Of a DNA stretch of 64,000 nucleotides, positions 1 through 19,914 are shown in pieces. The DNA comes from Galbibacter pacificus (GTDB taxonomy: Bacteria > Bacteroidota > Bacteroidia > Flavobacteriales > Flavobacteriaceae), in contig NZ_JAQSVC010000001.1 in assembly GCF_029603165.1 (NCBI RefSeq), positions 372,001-436,000 on the forward strand. Direction: 5' to 3'. The first letter of the stretch is position 1; the number at the start of each line of letters is the position of its first letter. A model generated the notes under the pieces. The model made no database searches and was not told the DNA's origin. It saw only the letters and a program-made list of their open reading frames with translations. The position numbers and the translations under genes are program-made.

Positions 1-1
1 T

Positions 2-1618: not shown

Positions 1619-4214
1619 ATTACTTATAAAAAGAATAAAGTTCATAAAATTGATTTCCTTTTTGGTTTTGATACTATTTTTTTTGAATGGATGTCAAAAG
1701 AAAAAATCTACTCGTATTTATAAAGATTTTACAAAAGATTTTTCCTTGAGGGTAAATAATCTATTAAGCTATATGACTCTTGAAGAGAAGGTAGGCATGT
1801 TGCGTTACGACAATCCGGGAGTCCCCCGTTTGGGAATCCCCCGATACAATTGGTGGAACGAATGTTTACATGGAGTGGCAAGAGCCGGAGAAGCGACAGT
1901 TTTCCCTCAGGCAATAGGCTTGGCTTCCAGTTTTGATGAGAGGCTCATGAAAGAAGTAGCAACGGTCATTTCTGATGAAGCTAGGGCAAAACATCAATAC
2001 TTTAAGAATCAAGGAGTAAGGGGGATATATAGTGGACTTACTTTTTGGTCACCCAATATAAATATCTTCAGGGATCCAAGATGGGGAAGGGGGCAAGAAA
2101 CATATGGAGAGGATCCATATTTAACTTCTAGAATGGGAGTAAACTTTATACAGGGATTGCAAGGAGATAATCCTAAATACTTGAAGCTAGTGGCAACCGC
2201 TAAACATTTTGCAGTTCATAATGGACCAGAAATTTCAAGGCATAGTGATGATTTTGATGTTTCAGACAAGGATTTGAATGAAACTTATTTGCCAGCTTTT
2301 GATGCGGCAGTCAATGAGGCTAATGTGCAATCTATTATGTGTGCATACAACGCATTTAGAGGTGTTCCTTGTTGTGCTAATAATCTATTGCTTGATAGTG
2401 TTTTACGTAAAAAATGGAAATTCAATGGATATGTGGTTTCTGATTGTGGAGCTATTTCTGATTTTTACAGGGAGGGTGCACATGAGTATGTATCTACAAA
2501 GGATGAAGCTGCATCAGTAGGAATTAAATCTGGAACTGACCTGAATTGTGGGGATGTATATCAGAATCTGGATGCTGCCATAAAAAAGGGGTTAGTTGAT
2601 ACAACTTTTATAAATAAATCAGTGAAGAAATTATTGACTACAATGTTCAAATTGGGAATGTTTGATCCTGATAGTATTGTTCCTTATACACAAATTTCCA
2701 TTGATGAAGTTGCCAATGAAAAGCATATTGATTTGTCAAGGAAAGCTGCTCAAGAATCTATTGTTTTATTAAAGAATAAAATGCAGGCGCTCCCTTTATC
2801 TAAAAAGATAAAATCAATAGCTGTGATTGGTCCAAATGCAAATTCATTGGATGCATTATATGGGAACTATCATGGAATTTCTAAAAATCCAATTACACCG
2901 GTAAAAGGCATTCAAGAAAAACTCGCTAAAGATGCAGCCATATATTATGCTCCAGGAACACCATATGTGGATGGAATGAATATTTATCAAGATATACCTG
3001 AACAAGTATTTTACGTAGACTCTACGCTTTCAAGACGTGGTCTTCAAGGCAAATATTATAAAAGTTTAGATTATACGGGAACCCCGGCTTTGGATAGGGT
3101 AGATAAAAAAATGGATTTTAATTGGATGGATAAAATGCCAATTGAACTTCCTTATAATAGTCGATTCTCTATTATATGGAAAGGGATTTTACTGCCTGAA
3201 TATACAGGGAAATATAAGTTTAAAACTAGAGGTGAAGTTTTTGTTGATGGGAAGAAGGTGGATGGAGAAATATCATTAAAATCTGGAGTGAAATACAATT
3301 TTGAGTTCAGAATACACGGTAACCAAATGTATGACGAAACAATTGTTCCAGCAATTAAATTATTATGGGCTAGAACAGATTATGATTATGCTCAGGAAGC
3401 TCTTGATGTAGCCAAAAAAGCAGAGGTTGTTATTTTTTGTGGAGGACTCTCACCAAGAATTGAAGGAGAAGAAATGGGAACCTTTAAACTTGAAGGATTT
3501 GAATATGGAGATAGAAGTTTATTAAAACTTCCAGATGTTCAAACAAATTTACTAAAGAGAATGAATGCACTAGGGAAAAAAATAATATATGTAAACATGA
3601 GCGGAAGTGCTGTGGCCTTTAACTGGGTTAATAAGTATGTTAATGGGATAATCCAAGTATTTTATCCGGGGGAACAGGGAGGCAATGCATTGGCTGATGT
3701 TTTATTTGGGGACTATAACCCCTCTGGACGTTTACCGATAACTTTTTATAAATCTGTAGATGACCTAGGGGATTTTAAGGATTATAGCATGAAAGGTAAA
3801 ACATACCGCTATTTTGAGGGCAGCCCATTATATCCTTTTGGGTATGGTTTGAGTTATTCGAAATTCAAATACAGCGATTTAGTTATTGAACAAGACACAT
3901 CAAAAGATGAAGTTACATTATCTGTAAAAGTTACCAATAATGGTCATATGGATGGGGAAGAAGTTGTACAGGTATATATGGGGAATAATAAAGTAATTGG
4001 GCAGCCTATAAGGAGTTTAAAAGCATTTAAGCGAGTATCAATACCAAAGAATCAATCAGTCAAAGTAGAATTTGTCCTTACCGGAAAATCTCTAAAGTAT
4101 ATTGATCAATATGGGATTTCAAAACCAATTTCAGGCGAAGTTGAATTGACAATAGGTGGAGGCTATGCTACTATTAATGAAAATTATATCAAGAAAAAAT
4201 TAGAAATAAAATAA
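1608..4214 (+). CDS. GH3 beta-glycosidase lipoprotein with PA14 insert
   Basis: Retaining exo-beta-glycosidase (beta-glucosidase/beta-xylosidase type). The 868-residue protein starts with a signal sequence ending in FLNGC (Cys29), so it is a lipoprotein exported to the periplasm or outer membrane. Order of parts: N-terminal GH3 barrel (about 45-370) with the KHFAVHNGP motif and candidate nucleophile Asp279 in VVSDCGAI; C-terminal GH3 sandwich beginning near 385; a PA14-like beta domain inserted at about 480-600 (RGLQGKYYKS onward, with a GKYKFKTRGEVFVDG core); and a fibronectin-III-like end (about 765-860). The arrangement with PA14 inside the second GH3 domain is known from beta-glucosidases and beta-xylosidases. 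It starts inside the GH92 gene and stops two bases before the transporter gene. Exact substrate is unknown. Confidence 0.92.
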   Translation: MKTKLLIKRIKFIKLISFLVLILFFLNGCQKKKSTRIYKDFTKDFSLRVNNLLSYMTLEEKVGMLRYDNPGVPRLGIPRYNWWNECLHGVARAGEATVFPQAIGLASSFDERLMKEVATVISDEARAKHQYFKNQGVRGIYSGLTFWSPNINIFRDPRWGRGQETYGEDPYLTSRMGVNFIQGLQGDNPKYLKLVATAKHFAVHNGPEISRHSDDFDVSDKDLNETYLPAFDAAVNEANVQSIMCAYNAFRGVPCCANNLLLDSVLRKKWKFNGYVVSDCGAISDFYREGAHEYVSTKDEAASVGIKSGTDLNCGDVYQNLDAAIKKGLVDTTFINKSVKKLLTTMFKLGMFDPDSIVPYTQISIDEVANEKHIDLSRKAAQESIVLLKNKMQALPLSKKIKSIAVIGPNANSLDALYGNYHGISKNPITPVKGIQEKLAKDAAIYYAPGTPYVDGMNIYQDIPEQVFYVDSTLSRRGLQGKYYKSLDYTGTPALDRVDKKMDFNWMDKMPIELPYNSRFSIIWKGILLPEYTGKYKFKTRGEVFVDGKKVDGEISLKSGVKYNFEFRIHGNQMYDETIVPAIKLLWARTDYDYAQEALDVAKKAEVVIFCGGLSPRIEGEEMGTFKLEGFEYGDRSLLKLPDVQTNLLKRMNALGKKIIYVNMSGSAVAFNWVNKYVNGIIQVFYPGEQGGNALADVLFGDYNPSGRLPITFYKSVDDLGDFKDYSMKGKTYRYFEGSPLYPFGYGLSYSKFKYSDLVIEQDTSKDEVTLSVKVTNNGHMDGEEVVQVYMGNNKVIGQPIRSLKAFKRVSIPKNQSVKVEFVLTGKSLKYIDQYGISKPISGEVELTIGGGYATINENYIKKKLEIK

Positions 4215-4216
4215 AA

Positions 4217-5533
4217 ATGAGAGACCAACTAAAAGAAAAAATTGTGCCAAGGAAAAACTTAGTTCCTTTTATTTTAATAACATCGCTTTTTGCATTATGG
4301 GGATTCGCAAACGCAGTTACCGATCCTATGGTTCAGGCTTTTAAAAAAGTTTTAGAACTTTCAAACTCTCAAGCAGCATGGGTACAAATGGCATTTTATG
4401 GAGGTTATTTCTGTATGGCATTACCAGCGGCACTCTTTGTGAGAAAGTATTCATATAAAACTGGGGTTTTAATCGGTTTAGGCCTATATGCCTTGGGAGC
4501 CTTATTGTTTTATCCAGCAGCAATATCAGGGCAATTTTGGTTTTTTTGTATAGGGTTATACATATTAACTTTTGGGTTAGCTTTTTTGGAAACAACAGCT
4601 AACCCATATATTCTTGCTATGGGAGATCCAAAAACTGCTACAAGGAGATTAAATCTGGCACAGGCCTTTAATCCTGTAGGATTGATATTAGGTTTATTAG
4701 TGGCACAACAGTTTGTATTGAAAAAACTACAGTCTGATGATATAGTTAATTTTGGTGCATTATCTCAGACTAAGATTGCTATGATCCGTGCCTCTGATTT
4801 GATGGTTATACGTAACCCTTATTTAATTCTAGGCCTAGTTGTTATTGGAGTTTTTGTGATGATTATAATAAGTAAGATGCCTCAGGCAAAAAGCGATGGT
4901 CAGATTATAGGTCTAGGCAATACATTTAAATCATTATTAAAAAATAAAGGCTACATATCAGGGGTCATTTCACAAGTATTATATGTGGGAGCCCAAATAA
5001 TGTGCTGGACCTATATATATCAATATGCTGAAGCAATTGCTATTCCGAGTGATATTGCAGCTAATTATCAATTTATGGCATTTATGGCATTCTTAATAGG
5101 AAGAGCTATAGGTACCTATTTATTGCGGTTCTTTAATCCAGGTAAATTGCTAATGTATTTTGCGGTATTAGCCTTTCTTTTTACGCTGGGGACCATCTTT
5201 ATTGAGGGAATTTTAGGGTTGTGTTGTTTGGTTGGAATTTCATTTTGTATGTCACTTATGTTTCCAACTATTTATGGAATAGCACTTGATGGCTTGAATG
5301 AAGAAGAGGCCAAAATAGGAGCAGCAGGATTAGTGATGGCTATTGTAGGAGGGGCTTTGATGCCAAAGTTACAAGGGATGATTATAGATTTAGGCGGGAC
5401 AGGAGTTAAAGATTTGAATTTATTTGGAGTTACAGAAGTAAATTTTTCTTTTATTCTGCCATTGGCTTGCTTTATTGGGATTACTTTATATGGTTATTTT
5501 ACATATAAAGAGAAAGAAAAACTATATAATTAG
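4217..5533 (+). CDS. FucP-type sugar:H+ symporter (MFS)
   Basis: Inner-membrane sugar/proton symporter of the FHS (FucP/GluP) branch of the major facilitator superfamily. The 438-residue protein has about 12 hydrophobic segments. Family signatures are FALWGFANAVTDPMVQAF in the first helix, the helix 4 region LAFLETTANPYILAMGDP, and RLNLAQAFNPVG just after it. These motifs are typical of L-fucose, glucose/galactose and related permeases, so the exact sugar cannot be named. It lies two bases after GH3 and ten bases before a decayed sugar kinase. The original unit was therefore GH92-GH3-permease-kinase, meaning import followed by phosphorylation of a released monosaccharide. Confidence 0.9.
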   Translation: MRDQLKEKIVPRKNLVPFILITSLFALWGFANAVTDPMVQAFKKVLELSNSQAAWVQMAFYGGYFCMALPAALFVRKYSYKTGVLIGLGLYALGALLFYPAAISGQFWFFCIGLYILTFGLAFLETTANPYILAMGDPKTATRRLNLAQAFNPVGLILGLLVAQQFVLKKLQSDDIVNFGALSQTKIAMIRASDLMVIRNPYLILGLVVIGVFVMIIISKMPQAKSDGQIIGLGNTFKSLLKNKGYISGVISQVLYVGAQIMCWTYIYQYAEAIAIPSDIAANYQFMAFMAFLIGRAIGTYLLRFFNPGKLLMYFAVLAFLFTLGTIFIEGILGLCCLVGISFCMSLMFPTIYGIALDGLNEEEAKIGAAGLVMAIVGGALMPKLQGMIIDLGGTGVKDLNLFGVTEVNFSFILPLACFIGITLYGYFTYKEKEKLYN

Positions 5534-5543
5534 GCTAAATATA

Positions 5544-5740
5544 ATGGATTATTATATAGGTTATGATATTGGCAGTACATCAATTAAAGGAGCTTTGATT
5601 GAGAATGAAAGTGGTAGGTCAATAAGTGTTTTACATATCCTAAAAATGAAATGAATATAGATTAAATGGGGTAGAATGTACTGAAAGGCAACATCAGGAA
5701 AATCGCAGAAGTGAATTTATAGTTGAAATTAAATAAGAAG
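5544..5740 (+). pseudogene. Remnant of an FGGY-family sugar kinase (xylulokinase-like N-terminus)
   Basis: An ATG at 5544 opens 36 codons to a TGA at 5652. The peptide begins MDYYIGYDIGSTSIKGAL, the phosphate-1 motif that opens FGGY carbohydrate kinases such as xylulokinase. The reading frame then breaks at about 5631: shifted by one frame the DNA reads YPKNEMNID, which is how the next conserved strand of such kinases continues, followed by further stops. About 450 residues of a normal kinase are absent. The fragment sits ten bases after the permease gene, exactly where the operon's kinase should be, and DNA of the recombinase-fragment segment follows. I infer deletion or truncation by that insertion. 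A short functional peptide is very unlikely. The right boundary is approximate. Confidence 0.75.
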
Positions 5741-5844
5741 AATTATCCATAACCTTATATATTTAGTTTAGTGAGATACTCTGATATTTTGTCGTACACA
5801 AATATTACTCCTGTTGATTATTTACATGTATAAATGAAAATAAA

Positions 5845-6366
5845 TTATATGATACCCTCTTCAATGACTTCAATTAAATGTTTTATATCTTCAATAAAAT
5901 GATTTGAAATTTGTATCTCTGGGGTCACCATCGAGGACAAATTGATATTTTTCGATTTGTCCTCTTTTTTGTTTATTTGTAGGTTGCTGTTAATCAATAG
6001 TATTATAGCTATTGCTTCATTAATTTTAGTGGTTCGAACTTTTCCAGATATTATCGTTAGCTTTTCAGGAAAAATGGAGGGAATTAACTTTCTTTTAACA
6101 AAAATATCTCCCTTTGAATACAGGATATCCAATTTTGAAATACAATTGTATCCTTTTTCCAATAAAGAATTAATATTAAAATTATCACTCTGAAAACCAG
6201 ACAGTTTAGATTCTGTCTTAATGATTTCTTCTCCGCACTCTGATTTTATAGCACGGAAGTCCTCAGCATCAATATTGCCGTTTAATAAGAGGTTTCTGGT
6301 CTTTTTTATTTTTTTATCTTGTTTGGTGACGCTTTTATTTATCCCTGTCTTTATAAATTATAAACC
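5845..6366 (-). pseudogene. C-terminal fragment of a Bacteroidota serine recombinase (copy 1)
   Basis: The minus strand is open from the end of the neighbouring oxidoreductase gene down to a stop at 5845. The peptide contains LLLNGNIDAEDFRAIKSE, SLLEKGYNCISKLDILYSKG, IPSIFPEKL, RTTKINEAIAII and a tail ending HFIEDIKHLIEVIEEGII. From family knowledge this is the pattern of the coiled-coil C-terminal region of large serine recombinases common in Bacteroidota. The catalytic N-terminal domain, zinc ribbon and most of the recombinase domain are missing, so it cannot be active. It overlaps the oxidoreductase stop codon by about 15 bases, which suggests a junction there. Related fragments occur at 8824-8949 and 11310-11622. 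Confidence 0.7.
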
Positions 6367-7211
6367 TCTCTTAATGCTTCTGCAAGTGCTTTAGGTTTTC
6401 TGCCGATTAGCTTTTCCAAATCTTTAGTTACAATTTCATACTGATGGTTTTTGATATCGGTTGAAAAACCCGCAATTATAGAAACCATAAATTCATTTAC
6501 ACCATTCTGTTTCAATTTCTGTGTGAATTCTTTCAGATTTGCATTGGTATAATTAACTTCTTTGCCAGAGATTTCCGAGAGAGCTTTCGCAACATCGGTA
6601 TAAGAATACAATTCGCTACCTGCAATTTCGTAGGTTTTATTTTCATGACCGTCTTGCAACAGCACATTAGCTGCAGCTTCCCCCATTTCCCTGCGCAGTG
6701 CATAAGGCAATTTTCCATTTCCGGCCGGAAGAAAAATGCCGGTTTCAAAGACATGTTCGCCTACGTGCATCGGGATTACGTCTGTATAAAGTGAGTTACG
6801 TAAAAAAGTGTAGGACAATCCACTTTTTTTAATATGACCTTCTGTTTGAAAATGGCTTTCCATCAATTTTTTTGTGGCAGACTTATTTACGTCCTTCAAT
6901 GAAACGCCTGTATATGCAATATGTTTAATGCCTGCCTTTTTGGCTTCATCCACTACTGCTTTTTGTTGTTCTGCCCTGTTATGGTCTATGGTAGAAATAA
7001 GCAATAATTTTTCAATTCCTTCAAAGGCTTTCTCGATCGAGGCAATATCGTCAAAATCGGCAATGCGTACTTGTATGCCCTTTGCTTTTAATGATTGGGC
7101 TTTTTCTTCACTTCTTGCCAAAGCGATAAAGCTGTCTACCGATATGTTTTTCTGTAAATGGCTTATTACTGCTGAACCTAAATGTCCTGTTGCTCCTGTT
7201 ACCAATATCAT
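6351..7211 (-). CDS. NAD(P)-binding NmrA/QorB-like oxidoreductase
   Basis: 286-residue cytoplasmic atypical SDR of the NmrA/HSCARG-QorB type, probably an NAD(P)H-dependent quinone or electrophile reductase. The N-terminus carries the Rossmann motif VTGATGHLGSAV (GxxGxxG), followed by DFDDIASIEKAFEGIEKLLLIS and the KAGIKHIAYTGVS strand. These are typical of QorB-like proteins, which lack the classical YxxxK catalytic pair. It is divergent from an HxlR-family regulator gene, the same arrangement as qorB/ytfH in E. coli, which supports a redox or quinone stress role. A TACTTTTG -7 box lies upstream at 7242-7249 and a palindrome at 7293-7312. Its stop codon falls inside a recombinase fragment. 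Confidence 0.85.
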   Translation of the reverse strand: MILVTGATGHLGSAVISHLQKNISVDSFIALARSEEKAQSLKAKGIQVRIADFDDIASIEKAFEGIEKLLLISTIDHNRAEQQKAVVDEAKKAGIKHIAYTGVSLKDVNKSATKKLMESHFQTEGHIKKSGLSYTFLRNSLYTDVIPMHVGEHVFETGIFLPAGNGKLPYALRREMGEAAANVLLQDGHENKTYEIAGSELYSYTDVAKALSEISGKEVNYTNANLKEFTQKLKQNGVNEFMVSIIAGFSTDIKNHQYEIVTKDLEKLIGRKPKALAEALREVYNL

Positions 7212-7241
7212 GATTTCTGTATTTTACGATTAATAATGGCA

Positions 7242-7249
7242 CAAAAGTA
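7242..7249 (-). promoter_or_regulatory. -7 box for the QorB-like gene
   Basis: Minus-strand TACTTTTG matches the Bacteroidota -7 consensus TAnnTTTG and lies about 30 bases before the ATG at 7211. No clear -33 TTTG is visible at the usual spacing, which would suit regulated initiation. Confidence 0.5.
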
Positions 7250-7292
7250 GGATATATAGTTACTATTATGCTAATTGTTACCTATTGGTAAG

Positions 7293-7312
7293 TAGTTACC
7301 TTAAAGTAACTA
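7293..7312. promoter_or_regulatory. Inverted repeat, candidate HxlR operator
   Basis: TAGTTAC, six-base spacer, GTAACTA: a perfect 7-base-arm palindrome between the divergent QorB-like and HxlR genes, directly upstream of the HxlR -7 box. Related half-sites (ATAGTTACTAT at about 7256 and GTTACC at about 7277) lie beside it. HxlR regulators bind such dyads as dimers and often repress themselves and the divergent gene. Confidence 0.55.
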
Positions 7313-7319
7313 TTTTGTT

Positions 7320-7327
7320 TATCTTTG
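7320..7327 (+). promoter_or_regulatory. -7 box for the HxlR gene
   Basis: TATCTTTG matches TAnnTTTG exactly, 20 bases before the ATG at 7348. It lies downstream of the possible TTG start at 7285 and so argues against that longer reading. Confidence 0.6.
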
Positions 7328-7347
7328 CAACCAATAAGATTAATAAA

Positions 7348-7701
7348 ATGATGGATAAAAAATCGCTGTCTGAAGATTGCCTCAGAAATCTTCGAGGAAT
7401 AAAAGACACTCAAGACTTATTGAGTGGCAAGTGGAAAACTTCTATTATTGGGGCGCTATACCATAACGGTAAGTTCAGGTTTATGGAATTAAAAAGGCAT
7501 ATAGATGGCATTGCCCCCAAAGTGTTGTCCAAAGAGTTAAAGGACTTGGAGATGAACCGCCTTATAACGCGTAAGGTAAGAGATACGATGCCTATAACTG
7601 TTGAATACGAATTGACCCCTCAAGGCAAAAGCTTGAATAAGGTTATAAATGCTATGGGAGAATGGGGGGTAAGATATAGGGAGTTAATGATGAAAAAATA
7701 A
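7348..7701 (+). CDS. HxlR-family transcriptional regulator
   Basis: Winged-helix DNA-binding protein of about 117 residues, dimeric and cytoplasmic. Features: a conserved N-terminal Cys (SEDCLRNL), the SGKWKTSIIGAL helix, FMELKRHIDGIAPKVLSKELKDLE as recognition helix region, and a wing with YELTPQGKSL. In YodB/HypR-type HxlR proteins the equivalent N-terminal Cys senses quinones, diamide or aldehydes. The frame is open back to a TTG at 7285, but the -7 box at 7320-7327 lies inside that extension, so I take the ATG pair at 7348/7351. It is divergent from a QorB-like reductase with a palindrome between them, so it probably represses both genes. Confidence 0.88.
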   Translation: MMDKKSLSEDCLRNLRGIKDTQDLLSGKWKTSIIGALYHNGKFRFMELKRHIDGIAPKVLSKELKDLEMNRLITRKVRDTMPITVEYELTPQGKSLNKVINAMGEWGVRYRELMMKK

Positions 7702-7721
7702 TTTTTTATGACACTTATTAT

Positions 7722-8240
7722 TTAGGGGCGCTTTAATTTTATTTCAAAGAAGCAAACGTCTGCTCCGTGATAATGGGAAGGCAAGCCTGAAGAGTCATTC
7801 AATTTCTTGATTCCTAAAAAATCAAAGCCACATTTTTTGTAATGATTTATTAATTTTTCATTATCACCACAAGTGTCCATTTTGATGAATCGTTTATGCT
7901 GGGTATCTGCTAATTCCTTTGCCCAGTCAACAATTATTTTCACGAAATTATTCCCCCTAAAATTGGGGTTTGTTGCTATTCTGTGAATATATATAGAAGA
8001 TTCTTCTCCTTCGTCTTCCCAAATTTGAGGATCACTGTAAGTTATCGCCCAGATACAAGCTATTTTGTTTTCAATTACCAATTTAAATTGGCGATCTTCC
8101 ATAACTTCATTGGATATTAATTTTTCATCAAATTCCGGCCATTGATTTTCTGGAAATTTTTCCTTTTGAAAATCAGTAGCCAATTTATAAAGTCTAAATA
8201 TTTCGGGAATATCGCGTTGTGTACTGTTCGTAATTTTCAT
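7722..8240 (-). CDS. GNAT family N-acetyltransferase
   Basis: 172-residue cytoplasmic acyl-CoA transferase of the GNAT fold. The acetyl-CoA binding motif A is visible as IHRIATNPNFRGNNFVK, with RGNNF in place of the usual R/QxxGxG/A loop, followed by a helix and KMDTCGDNEKLINHYKKCGF, the usual motif B ending in a YKKxGF turn. The acceptor substrate is unknown. It is converging tail-to-tail with the HxlR gene (20 bases apart) and lies 14 bases downstream of a second GNAT gene on the same strand, so the two are probably cotranscribed. Confidence 0.85.
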   Translation of the reverse strand: MKITNSTQRDIPEIFRLYKLATDFQKEKFPENQWPEFDEKLISNEVMEDRQFKLVIENKIACIWAITYSDPQIWEDEGEESSIYIHRIATNPNFRGNNFVKIIVDWAKELADTQHKRFIKMDTCGDNEKLINHYKKCGFDFLGIKKLNDSSGLPSHYHGADVCFFEIKLKRP

Positions 8241-8254
8241 ATTATTAAGCTACT

Positions 8255-8794
8255 TTAATTTTTTAATAACACACGGAACGATTTTACTGTTCTGTGATAT
8301 ATTCCATTATCACTCTTTTTTACAGAGGTTCCTATTTCCTTTCCAATTTTTCTATAAAAGTTAAATGATTTCGGGTGGCTACTGCTTACTAGGAGATACT
8401 CAAAATTTTTCTTTGCATAATATGGCAAAATAACCTCATTTAACCAATAAGAACCATAGCCATTTCCTTTATCGACAATATGAAAATACTTTAAAAGTAC
8501 TGTTTTATTTTCTGGAAGATTTGATAAGTCTTCCATTCGATCTAATTCACCTCCCACAATTAATAATACACCAATTATATTTTTGTTTTTTTCAATTGTA
8601 TGTGTTTCAAAACAAATGCCGGGCTGTTTTTTTAGATTTTCAATATAGCGTATAGAATGATAGAGTTCGTTATAATCATCCCAATCATTTTCTAATTTCC
8701 AATTGACATATTTTCCAATAGGAGTTAGAAAATTATGATGAAATTTTTTATGAAGACTAAAAATCACACCTTCTTTGTTGCTTGTTATTTCCAT
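8255..8794 (-). CDS. GNAT-like acetyltransferase
   Basis: 179-residue protein with a GNAT-like plan: a beta strand NIIGVLLIVGG, LLKYFHIVDKGNGYGSYWLNEVILPYYAKKN (a GNGYGSYW loop fitting the acetyl-CoA binding motif) and a C-terminal HPKSFNFYRKIGKEIG turn, the usual 'NFYRKxG' end of GNAT domains. There is no signal peptide. It is the upstream member of a GNAT pair. A recombinase fragment begins 30 bases upstream of its start, so it appears to be cargo of the accessory segment. Substrate unknown. Confidence 0.75.
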   Translation of the reverse strand: MEITSNKEGVIFSLHKKFHHNFLTPIGKYVNWKLENDWDDYNELYHSIRYIENLKKQPGICFETHTIEKNKNIIGVLLIVGGELDRMEDLSNLPENKTVLLKYFHIVDKGNGYGSYWLNEVILPYYAKKNFEYLLVSSSHPKSFNFYRKIGKEIGTSVKKSDNGIYHRTVKSFRVLLKN

Positions 8795-8823
8795 ATTACA
8801 AAAATATGAAAAGGGTAAATGCT

Positions 8824-8949
8824 TTAGGTGGTTATTCTATCTTGATTTAAAAAGGTGCCCTTCAGTTTTATACGATACTTTACATCAATAACTTCAATTA
8901 AACGCTTTAAATCTTTAATGAAATGATTTTGAACTTTACTATCTAACAA
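8824..8949 (-). pseudogene. C-terminal tail of a serine recombinase (fragment 2)
   Basis: Minus-strand reading gives SKVQNHFIKDLKRLIEVI, matching the last residues of the fragment at 5845-6366 (SNHFIEDIKHLIEVI); the DNA is also visibly similar. Only this tail is present. It may be the missing 3' end of the fragment at 11310-11622, with the SDR/AraC module lying between the two. Confidence 0.6.
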
Positions 8950-9133
8950 TAATAATTATATCATCAAGGAGCAATACCTGCCAGGACGAAAACTTTTCAC
9001 AAATGCTTGGTCTCATCTCAATCTGCTAAATGACAAATAGATAACCAGTAGTAATTATTGCCTTTATAAAAGGGGAACTCGTTGAACAGATGCTATATTT
9101 TGGAGAGTACTTAAATGGTTTTCTTCTTAGCAT
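8950..9133. other. Non-coding spacer of the accessory segment
   Basis: About 180 bases without a convincing gene. A short plus-strand open stretch from about 8965 (peptide containing LPGRKLFTNAWSHL) ends at a stop near 9040 and matches nothing I recognise. It could be debris of another gene. Confidence 0.4.
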
Positions 9134-10051
9134 TTAATTAAACAATGCCCTATACTGTAAAGGTGTTTGGTGGGTTTTCTTTTTAAACATACTACTAAAG
9201 GATTGGGGATGTTGAAAACCTAAATTATATGCTATCTCCTTAACGCTTAAATTGGTAGTTGATATTAAATCCTTGGCCTCATTTATTATGAAATTTTGAA
9301 TATAGGTCTGTGCATTTTGACCAAGGAGGTTCCGTAGCATATCACTGAGATAACTTGGGGACATATTTAATTCTTCTGATAGGTATTGAACTGTAGGAAG
9401 CCCTGAAATACTAGCTTTCGTATTTAGATAATCACGAAGTATTTCTTCTATTTTTATTAATAGATCATTGTTTTCAGCATTCCTTGTAAGAAATTGTCGG
9501 TTATGAAATCTTCGTGAATAATTTAGAAGAAGATCTATATGAGATATTACCAGATCTTGGCTATAGTTATCAATATTATTTTTTAATTCATTTTTGATTT
9601 GTTGGAGCAGCGTCATAATTATTTCATTTTCTTTCTCTGAAAGATGGAGCGCTTCGGCAATAGCATAGGAGAAAAAACCATAGGTGTTAATGACTTTTCC
9701 TAAGGCCGAATGACGAATGAAATCTGCTTTAAAAACTAACATAAAACCGGTTACCGGATTATTTGAGATATTGGTGACTGAAAAAATCTGTCCAGGCTTG
9801 GTAAAACTCATCATCCCATCATCAAAGTCATAATCGCGCTGTCCATACTTAAACTTTCCTGAAGAACCTATCTTGCAGGCAACGCAATAGAAGTCATAAA
9901 AAAAACTTTTCCAAATTTCCCTATCATCAAACTTTATATTTTCAAAGTCAATGACACTTACCAATGGATGGTCGGGCTTATTTAAATGAAATAAGCTATG
10001 GAGCTCGGGTATTGATTTTATTTTTACCGGACCGGACTTTTTAATAGACAT
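9134..10051 (-). CDS. AraC-family transcriptional regulator
   Basis: 305-residue DNA-binding regulator. The C-terminal ~100 residues form the two helix-turn-helix AraC domain: first HTH around LPTVQYLSEELNMSPSYLSDML, second around LSVKEIAYNLGFQHPQSFSSMFKKK, ending TPLQYRALFN. The N-terminal ~190 residues fit a cupin-like effector domain (FDDGMMSFTKPGQIFSV). The gene begins one base after the stop codon of an SDR oxidoreductase gene on the same strand, so the two form a tight operon and the regulator probably controls it. A tandem direct repeat in front of the SDR gene (10937-10972) is the likely binding site. This SDR/AraC pairing is common in Bacteroidota. Confidence 0.88.
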   Translation of the reverse strand: MSIKKSGPVKIKSIPELHSLFHLNKPDHPLVSVIDFENIKFDDREIWKSFFYDFYCVACKIGSSGKFKYGQRDYDFDDGMMSFTKPGQIFSVTNISNNPVTGFMLVFKADFIRHSALGKVINTYGFFSYAIAEALHLSEKENEIIMTLLQQIKNELKNNIDNYSQDLVISHIDLLLNYSRRFHNRQFLTRNAENNDLLIKIEEILRDYLNTKASISGLPTVQYLSEELNMSPSYLSDMLRNLLGQNAQTYIQNFIINEAKDLISTTNLSVKEIAYNLGFQHPQSFSSMFKKKTHQTPLQYRALFN

Positions 10052-10052
10052 T

Positions 10053-10886
10053 TTATTTAAAATCAGTTTGTAAAGATAACTGTTTCCATTTTTCTAATTC
10101 TTCCCGTTCCCTTTCACGACTTTCCTTTATTGCATTAAAACTATCAGACCCTAACGGAAGATGTATGGGTGGGGATGACATTTCGGAAATTTTCAGTAAA
10201 ACTTGAGCCAACTTTTTAGGGTCTCCTAATTGCATACCATCATAGCTTCGGAAAATTTCAACTTGTTTTTCCAAGTTATAACCCTCAATTGCATTTTTGG
10301 CAATTGATAGACTATCCTCACTCATAAAACTTGTACGAAAAGTACCAGGTGCCAGAATAGTAACATTGATACCAAAAGGTGCCAATTCCTGTGCAAGAGC
10401 TTCGGACATTCCTATTACCGCAAATTTAGAAGCGTTATAGCTGCCATTACCCGCATGCCCTATATATCCCATCATAGAAGAAGTATTTATAATATGGCCA
10501 CTTTTCTGATTTCGAAGATAAGGAAGTACATGACGTATGACGTTTGCCATTCCAAATAGATTTACATCCATTGTCTTACGGAATTCCGCATTACTTAATT
10601 CTTCGATATTTCCCAATAAGTTATATCCTGCGTTATTAACAACAACATCTATGCGTCCAAAATGATGACAACCAATGTTAATAGCTTCCTTAACATCCTG
10701 TTCATTTGTGACATCTAAATCAAGGGCTAACAAATCAATCAAATTTCCATCGAGCTTTTCTAACATATTTTTGGGATTTCTCGAAGTAGCGATTACTTTA
10801 TCTCCATTATTTAAAATAGCTTTTGTTATTTCGAGCCCCATCCCTTTAGATGCTCCGGTAATAAACCACACTTTTTTTGTAACCAT
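10053..10886 (-). CDS. Short-chain dehydrogenase/reductase
   Basis: Classical SDR oxidoreductase of about 277 residues, cytoplasmic, NADP(H)- or NAD(H)-dependent. Visible: cofactor motif TGASKGMG, a DLDVTNEQDV acidic segment, NNAGYN, catalytic Ser in INTSSMMGYIG and the active-site YNASK, then PGTFRT. The frame extends to a TTG at 10925, but that extension overlaps the -7 box at 10910-10917, so the ATG giving MVTKKVWFITGAS at 10886 is chosen. It is first gene of an operon with the AraC regulator. The substrate cannot be inferred. Confidence 0.87.
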   Translation of the reverse strand: MVTKKVWFITGASKGMGLEITKAILNNGDKVIATSRNPKNMLEKLDGNLIDLLALDLDVTNEQDVKEAINIGCHHFGRIDVVVNNAGYNLLGNIEELSNAEFRKTMDVNLFGMANVIRHVLPYLRNQKSGHIINTSSMMGYIGHAGNGSYNASKFAVIGMSEALAQELAPFGINVTILAPGTFRTSFMSEDSLSIAKNAIEGYNLEKQVEIFRSYDGMQLGDPKKLAQVLLKISEMSSPPIHLPLGSDSFNAIKESREREREELEKWKQLSLQTDFK

Positions 10887-10909
10887 AACTTTATTCTTTT
10901 TGTATGAAG

Positions 10910-10917
10910 CAAAATTA
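10910..10917 (-). promoter_or_regulatory. -7 box of the SDR/AraC operon
   Basis: Minus-strand TAATTTTG matches TAnnTTTG, 23 bases before the chosen ATG. No good -33 box is visible, which fits activation by the AraC protein. Confidence 0.5.
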
Positions 10918-10936
10918 CATAGCAATTATATTAACG

Positions 10937-10972
10937 AAGTATTCCAATTGAAGAAATAAGTATTTCAATTGA
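10937..10972. promoter_or_regulatory. Tandem direct repeat, candidate AraC operator
   Basis: AAGTATTCCAATTGA at 10937 is repeated as AAGTATTTCAATTGA at 10958: one mismatch in 15, offset exactly 21 bases (two helical turns). This is the geometry expected for an AraC-family site, and it sits immediately upstream of the SDR/AraC -7 box. Confidence 0.6.
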
Positions 10973-11309
10973 GTAGGAAGCAAATTGTGAATATTAGTAT
11001 GCCGGAGATAATAAAAAACTAAACCTTCCATGCAGATTAATGTTTTGTTCTATGTAAGATAACTTGGCTCAATTAATAATACCAATGCCTGCAATTTGAA
11101 AACATCTTAAAAAGGACAGTTTCTTGTGATTTATAGGGGCGATGGACAAAGGGTGTATCGAAAAGAAAGAGAATAATTAGCAAAGAAGCGACTTGTGTTT
11201 TTACTTTCCGAAGACCAAAGGGGGGGCGTAAAGGGGTCAAACAGGTTATTATGGGTCATGAATTTCCTGATTCAAAATAAAATTTTCATTTATTTTGAAA
11301 GGCTTCGTT
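10973..11309. other. Non-coding accessory DNA
   Basis: About 340 bases with stops in all frames and no recognisable gene. A short plus-strand peptide near 11205-11278 (ending KQVIMGHEFPDSK) could be gene debris but is too short to assign. Confidence 0.4.
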
Positions 11310-11622
11310 AGTTATTAATCAGTTGTATTATAGCTATTGCTTCATTGATTTTAGTGGTTCGAACTTTTCCAGATATTATCGTTAGTTTTTCAGGAAAAAT
11401 GGAAGAAATTAACTTTTTTTAGCGAAATATATCCCTTTAAATACAGGATATACAATTTTGAAATGCAATTACATGCTTTTTTCCAGTAAGGAATTAATAT
11501 TAAAATTGCCACCTTGAAAACCAGATATTTTAGGTTTTGTTTTGATGATTTCTTCTTCGCACTCTGATTTTATAGTACGGGGGAGTCCTATGCATCAAAA
11601 TTAGTATTTCCGTCAAGTCTTA
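11310..11622 (-). pseudogene. Degenerate middle part of a serine recombinase (fragment 3)
   Basis: This stretch is a diverged direct copy of about 5985-6285, easily seen in the DNA (shared runs such as CTATTGCTTCATT and GGTTCGAACTTTTCCAGATA). It encodes the same recombinase C-terminal region on the minus strand, but indels in homopolymers (near 11410 and 11480) and stops break the frame. It lacks the tail present in copy 1; a separate tail lies at 8824-8949. Clearly non-functional. The segment between here and the GH36 promoter shows no gene. Confidence 0.65.
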
Positions 11623-11667
11623 TATTTAAAAAAAAGAATAAAAGTTTTTTGAATTAATCAATTTATA

Positions 11668-11694
11668 GTATTATTGTGGAATAGAATAGAACAG
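11668..11694 (+). promoter_or_regulatory. Promoter/operator element shared with the SusC operon (copy A)
   Basis: GTATTATTGT followed after two bases by AATAGAATAGAACAG. The same two blocks, separated by five bases, recur at 16712-16745 before SusC. TATTATTG resembles a Bacteroidota -7 box, and the AATAG repeats after it may be an operator for the GntR regulator encoded at 14006. Confidence 0.5.
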
Positions 11695-11747
11695 TTTAAT
11701 TAATAGTTGAAATTTAAATAATAATATTTATTAATATCATAGTAAAA

Positions 11748-13958
11748 ATGTCAAGTACTTTATCCAATCTCAAGAAATGTTGCATTATGGCCATGGTAAC
11801 ATTTTTAATTCCATGCCTTTCTTATAGTCAGAAACTAGTTTCTGTTAATACCGAAACCAATGCATTGGTATTTACTGTTAATGAAAATAATGAATTAAAT
11901 ACATTGTATTTTGGGGATAAATTAAAAAATTCTTCAGAATATGAGCTCATTGCAAAGCATTATAAGCAAGGAACGGATTATTCTGAAATTTATAATTCTA
12001 TATATACCCCGGCAGGGTCTAAAAATCTTTTGGAACCAGCAATAAATATCACGCATACAGATGGAAATACTTCTTTAAGCTTGGAATATATAAATGCTGA
12101 AACCAATGAGGTTGAACCTAATGTGCACCTAACTAAAATTGTTTTACAAGACAAAGTCTATGATCTTGAAGTAGACCTTTTCTTCAAAGCTTATTATAAA
12201 GAAGATGTTATAGAAACATGGACAGAAATACATAATAATGAAAAGGGGGGAATAAGATTGCATAAATTTGCATCGGTAAATTTGTACCTTTATGGGGATA
12301 ATGATTTTTGGTTAACCCATTATAGTGGAGATTGGGCTCAGGAGATGAGACCAGAAGAAACAAGATTGTCTCACGGAATCAAAGTATTGGACTCTAAGTT
12401 AGGAACACGAGCCAATTTATTTCAACCGTCAGTGTTTATGGTGTCTATAGGAAAACCTGCTACAGATAATGAAGGTACGGTACTAATGGGTGGTTTGGAA
12501 TGGTCTGGGAACTTTCGCAATGAATTTGAGGTGGACCCATTGAATAACTTACGAATTCTTTCAGGTATTAATAATTATGCTTCTGATTTTGAATTAAAAA
12601 AAGGGGAAGCTTTTACTACGCCTAAATTTTGGTTCTCATTATCACGTACCGGAAAAGGAGATGCTAGCCGAAACATTCACAATTGGGCTCGAAACTACAA
12701 AGTATTGGACGGAAAAGGCACCCGTTTAACCCTACTTAATAATTGGGAAGCTACATATTTTGATTTCAATGAAAAGAAACTTAAAAAATTAATTGAAGAT
12801 GCTGATAAGTTGGGAGTAGACCTGTTTTTATTAGACGATGGATGGTTTGGGAACAATTATCCGAGAAATGCCGATAATGCTGGACTTGGTGATTGGGAGG
12901 TGAATCAAAAAAAGTTGCCCAACGGAATAGGGACATTGGTAAAGACAGCGGAGAAAAACAACGTCAAATTTGGTATTTGGATAGAGCCGGAAATGGTAAA
13001 TCCAGATAGTGACTTGTATCATGAACACCCCGAATGGGTAATTAAGCAACCCATGCGTGAGGAACATTACTTTAGGAACCAGCTGGTTTTGGATCTTTCC
13101 AACCCAGATGTGCAAGACTTTATATTTAATGTAGTTGATGGCCTCTTTACCGAAAATCCAAATTTGGCGTATATTAAATGGGACTGTAATTCGGTTATTT
13201 ATAATGCACATTCTGATTATCTTAAAGATGATGAGCAATCTGAATTGTATATAAAGTATGTTCAAGGTCTTTATAATGTACTGGAACGAATTAGAGAAAA
13301 ATACCCGAAAGTTCCAATGATGTTATGCTCGGGCGGTGGCGGAAGAGTTGATTATGGAGCAATGGAATATTTTACAGAGTTCTGGCCGAGCGACAATACA
13401 GATCCGCTTGAGAGAGTGTTTATGCAGTGGGAATATTCATATTTTTATCCATCTTCAGCCATTGCTGCCCATGTTACGGATTGGGGAAATCAATCTATTA
13501 AATTTAAGACAGATGTAGCAATGATGGGGAAAATGGGCTTTGATATTGTGGTTGATGAATTGCCCAAAGATGAGCTTGAATTTTGCCAGAGAGCGATAAA
13601 GAATTACAATGAGCTGGAAAATGTTATTTGGCAAGGGGATTTATACAAGTTAAAAAACCCATGGAAAAACGAACTGGCTTCTTTAATGTATGTGGGACAG
13701 GATAAAAAGAAAGCTATTGTATTTAATTATTTGGTGAATTATCGTTACGAGAAAGGAAGTCATTCTCCAATTAAGTTAAAAGGGTTAAATCCGGCCTCCA
13801 TATATGAAGTTGAGGAAATTAATGTTTTTCCTGGTCATGAACCAATTATAAATAAAGAGCATTATAGTGGAGATTTCTTAATGAAAATAGGGGTTAATCC
13901 AAAGGTAAGCTCGGGGCATCCAAGTGTGGTGCTTCGACTAAAAGAGGTTTCAAATTAG
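11748..13958 (+). CDS. GH36 alpha-galactosidase
   Basis: Retaining alpha-galactosidase releasing terminal alpha-D-galactose (raffinose-type or galactan side chains). The 736-residue protein begins with a signal peptide (cleavage likely after SYS in CLSYSQK), so it is periplasmic. Order: N-terminal beta-supersandwich (about 30-300), (beta/alpha)8 barrel (about 320-640) with LLDDGWFG, GIWIEPEMVNPDSDLY and the nucleophile Asp479 in YIKWDCN, candidate acid/base Asp549 in WPSDNTDPLER, and a C-terminal beta domain. The spacing of these two Asp residues matches characterised GH36 enzymes. It is the first gene of a plus-strand unit followed by a GntR regulator and an SSS transporter, and an upstream element matches one before SusC. 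Confidence 0.93.
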   Translation: MSSTLSNLKKCCIMAMVTFLIPCLSYSQKLVSVNTETNALVFTVNENNELNTLYFGDKLKNSSEYELIAKHYKQGTDYSEIYNSIYTPAGSKNLLEPAINITHTDGNTSLSLEYINAETNEVEPNVHLTKIVLQDKVYDLEVDLFFKAYYKEDVIETWTEIHNNEKGGIRLHKFASVNLYLYGDNDFWLTHYSGDWAQEMRPEETRLSHGIKVLDSKLGTRANLFQPSVFMVSIGKPATDNEGTVLMGGLEWSGNFRNEFEVDPLNNLRILSGINNYASDFELKKGEAFTTPKFWFSLSRTGKGDASRNIHNWARNYKVLDGKGTRLTLLNNWEATYFDFNEKKLKKLIEDADKLGVDLFLLDDGWFGNNYPRNADNAGLGDWEVNQKKLPNGIGTLVKTAEKNNVKFGIWIEPEMVNPDSDLYHEHPEWVIKQPMREEHYFRNQLVLDLSNPDVQDFIFNVVDGLFTENPNLAYIKWDCNSVIYNAHSDYLKDDEQSELYIKYVQGLYNVLERIREKYPKVPMMLCSGGGGRVDYGAMEYFTEFWPSDNTDPLERVFMQWEYSYFYPSSAIAAHVTDWGNQSIKFKTDVAMMGKMGFDIVVDELPKDELEFCQRAIKNYNELENVIWQGDLYKLKNPWKNELASLMYVGQDKKKAIVFNYLVNYRYEKGSHSPIKLKGLNPASIYEVEEINVFPGHEPIINKEHYSGDFLMKIGVNPKVSSGHPSVVLRLKEVSN

Positions 13959-14005
13959 GGTAAATCCAATAGAACATAATATATTTAGCATAAAATAAAA
14001 TATAA

Positions 14006-15022
14006 ATGGATCAAATTGTCCAGCAAATTAAGGAATTAGAATCTGTTAATTCACTTTCGAAACATGAGCAGATCGTTCAAGGAATTTTGAATGCAATCAA
14101 TGAAAAACATGTTTCAAAGGGAGATATGTTGCCTTCTGTTAATAAAATGATTCAGGAATTGGGTTTTGCAAGAGAAACCATTGTTAAGGCATATAAGGAA
14201 CTTGTTCATAGTGGGATTATCGAGTCCAAAAATAGATTGGGATATTTTGTGGCTACTGAGGATACACAGCAGGAGCTGAAAGTAGCTTTAGTTATTTTCG
14301 CTTTTGATATTTTTCAAGAAACATTTTATGAAAACTTTAGAAATGGTCTAGGCGATTCCATTCAATTAGATATTTTCTTTCATCATAATAATTTTGAAAC
14401 ATTTGATACAATTGTTAATAATATCAGAGGTAAATATGGAATGTATGTTATAGCGCCTATTCCTCATAAAAGCACCCCTGAATTGTTGAGACAGCTCCCG
14501 GTTAATCGGGTTCTGTTGGTGGATAGGTTTGTGAAAACAAAAGAAGATTATAGTTACGTGGTTCAGGAATTTAGAGAATCTTCTTATCAGGCATTTTGTA
14601 AACTGAAAGATAAAATCCAGAAGTTTGATCAAGTAGTTTTTTTCTTTAAATCAAATTCTGCCGAACCCAATGAGATATTGGAGTCGTTCAATCAATTTGT
14701 GAAAGATCACCATATAAACTCTGTTATTCGCGATAATTATAAGCCGGGATCTTTAGAAAAAGGAAAAGTATATTTTACCATACATAACCTGGAATTATGG
14801 GAAATGCTAAAAGATACCAAGGCCAAAGGTTTTGTTTTAGGTAAAGACGTGGGGTTTATTTCTCATAATGATGATATTGTAAAAGAAATCATCTTTGACG
14901 GCGTAACCACATTTTCTACTGACTTTTCCAAAATGGGAACACGGGCAGCAGAATTTGTTAAAAGTGGTGAGAAAATTAAAGTAGTTGTTCCAACAGTCCT
15001 TATTGAGAGAAACTCTTTGTAA
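14006..15022 (+). CDS. GntR-family regulator with periplasmic-binding-protein-like domain
   Basis: 338-residue cytoplasmic transcription factor. The N-terminal winged helix (about 15-85) shows the GntR pattern: GDMLPSVNKMIQELGFARETIVKAYKELVHSGIIESKNRLGYFV. The rest resembles the LacI/ribose-binding fold (FVKTKEDYSYVVQEF, FVLGKDVGFISHNDD, FSTDFSKMGTRAAEFV), as in AraR-type regulators, so it should bind a sugar effector. It sits between GH36 and the SSS transporter, three bases before the latter. Likely target: the repeated element at 11668-11694 and 16712-16745. The effector is probably a monosaccharide such as galactose or an oligosaccharide product, which is inference from neighbours. Confidence 0.87.
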   Translation: MDQIVQQIKELESVNSLSKHEQIVQGILNAINEKHVSKGDMLPSVNKMIQELGFARETIVKAYKELVHSGIIESKNRLGYFVATEDTQQELKVALVIFAFDIFQETFYENFRNGLGDSIQLDIFFHHNNFETFDTIVNNIRGKYGMYVIAPIPHKSTPELLRQLPVNRVLLVDRFVKTKEDYSYVVQEFRESSYQAFCKLKDKIQKFDQVVFFFKSNSAEPNEILESFNQFVKDHHINSVIRDNYKPGSLEKGKVYFTIHNLELWEMLKDTKAKGFVLGKDVGFISHNDDIVKEIIFDGVTTFSTDFSKMGTRAAEFVKSGEKIKVVVPTVLIERNSL

Positions 15023-15024
15023 AA

Positions 15025-16620
15025 ATGAATGTAGTTGTATTTGGGAGTTTTGTATTTTGTACATTATTGATAGCAATAATCTCTTATATAAAAACCAGGA
15101 AAGATATAACCCGCACAACAGCGGGTTTATTTTTTGCCAATAAAGAGAACAATTTTTGGATTGTGGGGGGTGCCTTGTTCCTAAGTAATATCAGTGCTAA
15201 TCAGCTTATTGGGGAAAACGAGTCCATTTATATTAACAATATGAGTGTAATGGCTTGGGGGGTAAGCTCCATTTTTGCCATGTTATTGGTGGCTAAATTT
15301 ATACTCCCCATCTATTTTAAGACCAACTCCATGACTATTCCTGATTATCTGGGCAAGCGATATGACGGTGCTACCAAAAGACTGGTTTCCATAATTTTTT
15401 TATGTAGCTACTTGGTAAACTTACTTCCGGCTGTTCTTTATGGAGGAGCGGTAGCTTTTACGGGAATGTTTGATTTTATGGAATTGCCAGGTATGGGGTA
15501 CTGGCAACAAATTTGGCTTATGGTATGGGTAATTGGTACAATAGGAAGTTTATATTCCATTTATGGAGGCCTTCGTGCAATAACGATATCCGATAGTGTT
15601 TTAAGCATAGGGCTATTGTTGATTGGCATAGCATTCCCATACTATGGCTTTAAGGTATTGGGGGGTGGAAATTTTTTTGACGGTTTAGGGATATTGCTAT
15701 CTCAACATAAGGAACATCTCAACTCAATTGGAACTTCAAGCGATGAAATTCCATTTGGGACCATTTTTACAGGAATGCTTATCATGAATGTTTATTATTG
15801 GGGAATGGAGCAATACATAGTTCAACAAGCTATGACAGCCAAAAACTTAAAAGAAAGTCAAAAAGGAATGGCCTTGGCTTGTTTAGGTAAATTGCTATGT
15901 CCATTCTTGATAAATATACCTGGTTTAATTGGGGTTCATTTGATAAGCCGTTTAGATAATACTGCTGAAATATTTCCTAAAGTAGTAGGGGAGACCTTGC
16001 CCGATATATTAATTGGATTAACGGCAACAGTTGTATTGGGGGCGGCAATTACTACATTCAATGCTGGGCTTAATAGCAGTAGCGCCTTATTCATATTAAA
16101 TATATACAAACCGCTACAAAGGAAAAGAGGAAAACGGACATCTGAACGTGACCTCACACGAAAAGGTAAACTTTTTCAAATAGTGGTCTCTTTGATAGCC
16201 ATGTTTACAGCACCTTTTATATTATTTGCAGACAGTGGATTTTATACCTATCTTCAGCAACTGTCCGGAATGTTTTGTGTTCCCATATTTACAATTGTAA
16301 TACTTGGTTTTGTTAGTAAAAAAGTCTCTCCTTTGGCGGCTAAGTCCGGGGCAATTCTTTTTATTATTTGTTATGTGGTTGCTAATTATGTAATGGAAAT
16401 ACGTTTGCATTATTTACATTTATTAGGGATACTGTTTTTGCTTACTTCAGCTTGGATGCTCCTCTTAGGAGCTCTTTTGCCAAAAAACGAAATAAAAATA
16501 ATGCCATTGCAGTATTCTGGTAATTTTCAGTCTTGGAAATATCTCAATTATAGTGCAATTCTTCTAATAGTTCTAATGATAGCAGTTTTTCTACTCTTTT
16601 CTCCATATGGTATTGCATAA
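15025..16620 (+). CDS. SSS-family sodium/sugar symporter
   Basis: 531-residue inner-membrane Na+:solute symporter (SLC5-like) with about 14 hydrophobic segments. Signatures: GGALFLSNISANQLIGENES early in the protein (the sodium-site helix region of sugar SSS members), TIPDYLGKRYDGATKR after helix 3, the GGLRAITISDSVLSIGLL segment and YYWGMEQYIVQQAMTAKNLKESQKG, all typical of vSGLT-like sugar carriers. It is placed with a GH36 alpha-galactosidase and a sugar-responsive GntR regulator, so galactose or a related sugar is the likely cargo. The gene ends 190 bases before SusC. Confidence 0.9.
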   Translation: MNVVVFGSFVFCTLLIAIISYIKTRKDITRTTAGLFFANKENNFWIVGGALFLSNISANQLIGENESIYINNMSVMAWGVSSIFAMLLVAKFILPIYFKTNSMTIPDYLGKRYDGATKRLVSIIFLCSYLVNLLPAVLYGGAVAFTGMFDFMELPGMGYWQQIWLMVWVIGTIGSLYSIYGGLRAITISDSVLSIGLLLIGIAFPYYGFKVLGGGNFFDGLGILLSQHKEHLNSIGTSSDEIPFGTIFTGMLIMNVYYWGMEQYIVQQAMTAKNLKESQKGMALACLGKLLCPFLINIPGLIGVHLISRLDNTAEIFPKVVGETLPDILIGLTATVVLGAAITTFNAGLNSSSALFILNIYKPLQRKRGKRTSERDLTRKGKLFQIVVSLIAMFTAPFILFADSGFYTYLQQLSGMFCVPIFTIVILGFVSKKVSPLAAKSGAILFIICYVVANYVMEIRLHYLHLLGILFLLTSAWMLLLGALLPKNEIKIMPLQYSGNFQSWKYLNYSAILLIVLMIAVFLLFSPYGIA

Positions 16621-16711
16621 GGTTTTAACAAAGGGTAATAACCGTTAATGATAGTTTACGTGTTTTTCATCTTTTTTTTTAGTGAATTCTTATAAAAAAG
16701 AAAAAATATTT

Positions 16712-16745
16712 GTATTATTGTTTCTGAATAGAATAGTATAGTACA
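16712..16745 (+). promoter_or_regulatory. Promoter/operator element before SusC (copy B)
   Basis: GTATTATTGT, five bases, AATAGAATAGTATAGTAC. Matches the element at 11668-11694 upstream of GH36. The second block is built of near-repeats AATAG-AATAG-TATAG. It sits about 70-100 bases before the SusC start, as the only long intergenic region in this part of the PUL. Confidence 0.5.
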
Positions 16746-16811
16746 ATAACTTTACTTAAAATTCAATTACAAGCAACTAACAATGTAAACTTTAAAAACT
16801 AATTTAAAAAG

Positions 16812-19883: not shown

Positions 19884-19914
19884 TTGTACTTAAGAATCTA
19901 TAAAATTCAACAAA

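Follow-up and report, generated by a model that had tools for sequence, protein, structure and literature searches.

C-terminal exchange and the targeting of tRNA genes by serine recombinases are both already in print, as seen in excerpts of two papers (PMC4701971; PMC3218068). In streptococcal integrative and conjugative elements (ICEs) with a single serine integrase that targets rumA, the excerpts place the attachment site in the integrase 3' end and describe exchange of the C-terminal end on integration as well as short direct repeats (PMC4701971). The excerpts of the other paper describe phiRSM1 (tRNA-Ser) and eight Mycobacterium actinomycete ICEs (AICEs; tRNA-Leu) as cases of serine recombinases in tRNA genes and term such cases rare (PMC3218068). 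Here we report on a set of serine-recombinase fragments in Galbibacter pacificus, which we regard with good confidence as the decayed junctions of elements stacked by a large serine recombinase behind one tRNA-Arg(TCG) gene. The window, i.e., the whole stretch of DNA that was analysed, is 64,000 nucleotides long (contig NZ_JAQSVC010000001.1, 372,001 to 436,000, forward strand), and the fragments are found at window positions 5845 to 11622.

Like the rumA ICEs, the system described here would have its attachment site in the 3' end of the recombinase gene and would exchange the C-terminus; unlike them, it is found at many tRNA and transfer-messenger RNA (tmRNA) genes instead of one protein gene. 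It shares with phiRSM1 and the Mycobacterium AICEs the entry of a serine recombinase into tRNA genes, but those elements target one tRNA each. In excerpts on the A118-type serine integrase, the zinc-domain motif lies 5 bp nearer to the crossover in the target attachment site (attB) than in the element attachment site (attP) (PMC3783163). The 5-bp shift is shared by the present system, whereas the motif here would be the tRNA T-arm. The archaeal "suicidal" integrases are described in part of a further paper as tyrosine enzymes whose gene contains the attachment site and is split by integration (PMC8371274); the attachment site would likewise be in the gene here, but only a short C-terminal stretch would be exchanged. 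An integron cassette array (tyrosine IntI, attC sites) is comparable in layout alone, the enzyme here being a serine recombinase. As in the CTnDOT-type conjugative elements of Bacteroidota, transfer genes are carried by two relatives, G317C12 and G297 (TraG, TraJ and TraM domains in the latter), in both cases beside the recombinase. The CTnDOT integrase, however, is a tyrosine recombinase, and nine proteins of the G297 transfer region found no match in C11:302001-496000 around the window at E 1e-5, so that element 1 (see below) shows no sign of conjugation genes of this type. The Riemerella 10K island was also considered and set aside; its integrase is called a tyrosine integrase in the part of the paper seen (PMC6764341). 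In a search of the open-licence literature, we recognised nothing on T-arm recognition by serine recombinases, nor did we find islands of this kind described as carriers of polysaccharide loci.

Recombinase repeats and attachment junctions in the window

The features that carry the argument are as follows.

5845-5920, minus strand: tail, a putative attP'-type half-site at the end of element 1 (motif scan, G000, 48029; alike tails in copy B and G399)
5901-5907: T-arm-like TCAAATC in the tail, 21 nt from the core GT
5921-5936, plus strand: core, tRNA-Arg 3' end GGGGTCACCA followed by TCGAGG (exact match at C11:329964-329979)
5933-5964, plus strand: terminator-like hairpin GAGGACAAAT / ATTTGTCCTC, then a T-run (from the sequence; fold -14.9 kcal/mol, no shuffle control)
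5965-6357, minus strand: copy A, C-terminal remnant of a large serine recombinase, truncated by the NmrA/QorB-like gene (by homology)
8868-8937, minus strand: copy B tail, putative decayed far end of element 2 (80% identity to the copy A tail, E 6e-12; no intact core before the tail)
11315-11602, minus strand: copy B body, frameshifted C-terminal recombinase remnant (87% identity to copy A, E 1e-87; stops in all frames)
About 11283 to 11622, minus strand: weaker DNA similarity around the copy B body

A preliminary description of this DNA had noted that the similarity is visible in the DNA itself and that all fragments lie on the minus strand; both points hold. Copy A with its junction (5845-6357) reads open over 170 codons. 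Identity is 90% between 5990-6108 and 11315-11433, 86% between 6154-6256 and 11478-11580, and 83% between 5861-5912 and 8885-8936. With copy A as the query, blastn against window positions 1-20000 returned 11315-11602 (E 1e-87) and 8868-8936 (E 6e-12). The three fragments had been counted as three copies. Stretches two and three correspond to complementary portions of copy A and are thus most simply one interrupted copy. The window would most simply hold two recombinase copies, the second of them (copy B, 8868-8937 plus 11315-11602) split by an SDR/AraC module. The joined parts of copy B are identical to copy A at 356 of 459 aligned positions.

A fourth fragment is found at C11:329964-330118, with 97% identity to copy A over 155 bp. 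It is located directly behind tRNA-Arg(TCG), past genes that look by eye like ftsZ and yqeY. The 16-mer core GGGGTCACCATCGAGG combines the tRNA 3' end with 6 further nt and occurs exactly at two places in the genome, C11:329964-329979 and window 5921-5936 (the single match in the window); the remaining genome matches all have 3 mismatches. The core of tRNA-Arg(TCG) is 48 kb upstream of the copy A core, and this 48-kb block therefore has the tRNA 3'-end repeat at both ends, as used to define tRNA genomic islands. At copy A, the core leads into the same hairpin and recombinase end as at tRNA-Arg, and the tail on the other side is not tRNA. Positions 5845-5964 form an attachment junction made up of tail, tRNA 3' end and hairpin, and the reading frame of the recombinase runs through it. 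Judging from the order and orientation, recombinase-hairpin-core-tRNA ... core-tail, the 48 kb between the two cores is probably an integrated island whose own recombinase has decayed. The preliminary description had seen a cargo array between the fragments and overlooked the tRNA-Arg(TCG) anchor; with the anchor 48 kb upstream, part of the polysaccharide locus itself is probably cargo.

Conservation of the tail through translation was considered and dropped. Over 20 codons the differences by codon position are flat (5/3/6 between copies A and B, 8/4/7 between copy A and G399) and the residues common to the tails track the T-arm-like DNA motif, so the codon positions give no support to a tail that is translated and functional.

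Recombinase family and tRNA targets

Profile searches of the fragment alone, as suggested in the preliminary description, matched no recombinase family in Pfam, NCBIfam or PHROGs, and full-length relatives were required. Neither the Resolvase nor the Recombinase domain is present in the window fragment itself (Pfam), so its membership in the large serine recombinases rests on homology. In 30 of 397 family genomes, among them that of the window, recombinase open reading frames (ORFs) match copy A with their C-terminal part (E 1e-5 or better); where intact, these ORFs are mostly 500-600 aa. A full-length set was drawn from the 29 loci L005-L033 plus L201, L204, L206 and L209, which gave 22 ORFs of more than 450 aa after short or broken ORFs and two loci missed by BLAST (L016 and L025) were left out. 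All 22 have the Resolvase and Recombinase domains, and a zinc ribbon is also found in 13 members, in agreement with the earlier assignment of the fragments as serine-recombinase C-termini. The claim that the catalytic domains are gone was borne out as well: no catalytic domain was found at the window locus, and PF00239 is found in the genome at two C14 loci only.

A tRNA or tmRNA gene is present in 25 of the 29 family loci. Twenty of the 22 full-length ORFs overlap such a gene antisense by 36-140 nt, and four cross the whole gene; in the two exceptions the contact is 1 nt (L012) or none (L033). In a phylum sample, the L005 recombinase was matched in 41 of 395 genomes (E 1e-30 or better), and among 30 fetched loci tRNA overlap was found in 23 and none in seven (L275, L279, L281, L283 and L285-L287). 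The 23 include L271, which overlaps by 1 nt, L268 and L277 with an in-frame TGA, and L262 and L271, which repeat recombinases of the family sample. Control serine recombinases outside the clade (L238 and L246 from the same genome; L239, L240 and L244) have no tRNA in the locus (0/5), and the control fragment L245 is likewise without one; L241-L243 of the control sample are clade members with tRNA overlap. Recombinases of the clade occupy tRNA genes for Arg, Met, Leu, Lys, Asn, Pro and Glu as well as tmRNA, to be set against the earlier description of such targeting as rare in the excerpts cited above (PMC3218068). Ten relatives sit in viral contigs. Five phage and three plasmid records were matched, at 24-29% identity only.

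At G639:C8:117903-122788, two clade recombinases are found in the same orientation 2 kb apart and may represent intact elements in tandem. Just upstream of the recombinase in L206 is an ORF of some 300 aa with no Pfam match (L206:2199-3167, minus strand), and similar-looking ORFs were seen by eye in L202 and L204. It is a candidate regulator or directionality factor.

Spacing of the putative half-sites

The motif TC[GA]AA[CT] starts 16 nt from the core GT in the target tRNA and 21 nt from it in the element tails. In a spacing scan of 17 sequences, there were 19 matches at 16 nt and 17 at 21 nt, and no other distance between 8 and 59 had more than six; on the reverse strand the maximum was five. 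Of the eighteen sequences built for the scan, G316 was excluded for its deviating core; G268 was scored with the tmRNA core despite its tRNA being Met. By position, 16 of the 19 matches at 16 nt are the tRNAs themselves. At 21 nt, 14 of the 17 matches have an upstream stretch folding at -8.5 kcal/mol or lower and three do not (no shuffle control was run). The 14 fold-backed far ends fall in eight of the 17 sequences, copy A among them. Since the rule was first noticed in copy A and in G071a, G071b, G045, G268 and G268C7, only G317C1 and L275 are cleanly independent of it; the G071c sequence was already at hand but played no part in framing the rule. Apart from the exceptions given below, the distance between motif and core is 5 bp greater in attP than in attB, and we infer that the tRNA T-arm serves as the zinc-domain motif of the clade. 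The targets of the recombinase may be set by the T-arm plus a few acceptor-stem bases.

Other ways to locate far ends were less productive. Exact repeats of at least 11 nt gave only short chance-like matches, save a 34-nt recombinase-side repeat in G268. The 16-nt core search gave one exact far repeat, in G316, and regular-expression searches for tails were of use only for the G268 remnant and L033/L218. The 16/21-nt rule helps to locate island ends despite the short repeats. Together with the range of targets given above, this opens the movement of polysaccharide utilization loci between Bacteroidota to testing.

Proposed mechanism and alternative explanations

In the proposed mechanism, the recombinase would cross over just inside the tRNA 3' end, which would give recombinase-hairpin-core-tRNA at the near end and core-tail at the far end. 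Newer elements would enter at the tRNA and displace older ones outward, and every seam would recreate an attP-like site. The tail motif, 5 bp farther out than the tRNA T-arm, would be the attP half-site read by the zinc domain. Element 1 would comprise the ~48 kb of mostly glycan-use genes between the tRNA core and copy A. Stacked next to it, the ~3 kb from copy A to tail B with the NmrA/HxlR/GNAT module are probably a second element, element 2. The SDR/AraC module would be located at the decayed core of junction B, and the recombinases would have decayed after integration. A wider proposal, whose prospects we see as evenly balanced, is that the clade reads the conserved T-arm as a zinc-domain half-site and could thus settle in nearly every tRNA or tmRNA gene and stack cargo (whole polysaccharide utilization loci, or ~100-bp cargo-free units) in serine-driven integron-like arrays; with attP inside its own 3' coding end, integration would replace the C-terminal residues of the recombinase by residues that the target tRNA encodes.

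Several observations weigh against stacking behind the tRNA gene. About 77 bp of copy A surrounding the core have no recognisable counterpart in copy B. Searched against its own genome, the copy A tail matches only copy B, and no far end was found for a third element. The drop in G+C is modest (35.3% in element 1, 39.1% in the left flank). In nine of the 17 scanned sequences no far end was found within the fetched length, and G316, L249 and L252 lack the 5-nt shift. The empty-site comparison suggested in the preliminary description gave no clean empty site among six relatives of the genus: tRNA-Arg(TCG) follows a yqeY-like gene in all six, with different downstream genes in each, and tkt/tgt adjoin the tRNA in G398 but are 328 kb away here. 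A further point against is the tail-like stretch in G399, of the same genus (72% DNA identity, E 3e-7), from which both core and motif are missing. Remnants at this tRNA in two genomes of the genus speak in favour of stacking. One is the recombinase remnant of G399 (56% over 64 residues, E 4e-17), which lies 6.9 kb before the tail-like stretch; in G400 the tRNA is accompanied by a hairpin of similar type, and after 1.7 kb there is a remnant of a recombinase end (76% over 74 nt, E 2e-10). In the other four genus genomes (20 kb each), the best E values were 5e-4 (DNA) and 0.4 (protein).

It is unlikely, in our view, that the glycan locus (fucP, kinase, GH36 onward) was ancestrally contiguous, with a family element carrying its own tRNA-like core inserted beside the kinase, through a secondary site or homologous recombination, and the tRNA fragment a separate insertion. 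A 5' remnant of the kinase gene just left of copy A and sugar genes on both sides of copy A would fit such a history. The 3' part of the kinase is not seen by eye on the right side, however, GH36 adjoins fucP in none of the best 80 of 341 fucP loci, and a single integration accounts both for the 97% identity of the ends and for their order, recombinase-core-tRNA ... core-tail. The preliminary description had favoured repeated insertion of cargo modules next to or inside recombinase genes. Three separate genes, each struck by a module, would account for the three similar stretches, but stretches 2 and 3 are complementary, and tail plus core are parts of an attachment site, so that the modules lie between junctions (the SDR/AraC module is a possible exception). 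We consider three genes very unlikely, while the idea of a serially built locus stands. A plain segmental duplication or transposition that scattered one recombinase gene, with no site-specific integration, appears highly improbable: one contig carries all the copies and their sequences are similar, but it is with the tRNA end and core that the shared pieces start, and many tRNA genes of other genomes show the same layout.

Cargo and neighbouring genes

The remaining features of the region are listed below.

1-5533, plus strand: right-hand end of putative element 1 (which would begin outside the window, at the tRNA-Arg core, C11:329964), glycan-use genes (boundaries from the two cores), including a GH92-like gene (by eye), a GH3 gene (Pfam) and a fucP-type transporter gene (NCBIfam TIGR00885, E 1.5e-154)
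5544-5654, plus strand: truncated 5' remnant of a sugar kinase gene, 37 codons, directly after fucP (by translation)
6351-7211, minus strand: NmrA-family protein, probable element 2 cargo (PF05368, E 5e-28)
7351-7701, plus strand: HxlR-type regulator, probable element 2 cargo (PF01638, E 1.7e-24)
7722-8240, minus strand: GNAT acetyltransferase, probable element 2 cargo (PF00583, E 4.8e-08)
8255-8794, minus strand: ORF of 179 aa (no NCBIfam match to E 0.1; one sub-threshold Pfam match, E 0.099)
8938-11314, minus strand: SDR/AraC module between the copy B parts (approximate ends, position from blastn)
9134-10051, minus strand: AraC gene (PF12833)
10053-10892, minus strand: SDR gene (PF00106)

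The SDR, AraC and HxlR assignments of the preliminary description were confirmed, and its "QorB" scores as NmrA family. One of its two GNATs is supported; the other, at 8255-8794, matches no family over the cut-off. The supported GNAT shows 38% identity to a GNAT on the G297 element. The kinase remnant, which we take to be of the FGGY type, has one relative match, in L227 (61% over 23 residues). Ten proteins of the 48-kb block were chosen for domain search and nine have domains, mostly of SusC, SusD, GH43, GH92, GH3, GH2 and GH95 type; one has none. No syntenic copy of window 62-5533 was found in the six other genus genomes, in which single genes match at 66-73%. Many glycan-use genes with several SusC/SusD pairs (partly by eye) are found in the ~150 kb from tRNA-Arg(TCG) to tRNA-Arg(ACG) (C11:329898-482028).

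Islands in relatives

The best model for element 1 is G071b, in which an intact 554-aa recombinase in tRNA-Leu(TAA) is followed by SDR, HxlR, SusC, SusD, GH3 and SSS genes, with the far end at 28.0 kb. G071a and G071b have a common 151-bp block (95% identity) about 29.2 and 27.9 kb from their respective tRNAs, and the block contains two tail units ~110 bp apart. In G268 and G268C7 the tail units are spaced 90-100 bp. The far ends of G071a and G071b (L203, L206, L225, L227) and G268C7 (L204) consist of tandem units of ~90-110 bp with solely tail, hairpin and core, like cargo-free elements. The G317C1 cargo includes a relaxase and that of G268C7 a sulfatase, with two more sulfatases seen by eye. 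In L202 (G268:C1), pieces of a reverse transcriptase and variable, repeat-like ends, reminiscent of a diversity-generating retroelement, were seen by eye at about 12438-15964 (oriented positions).

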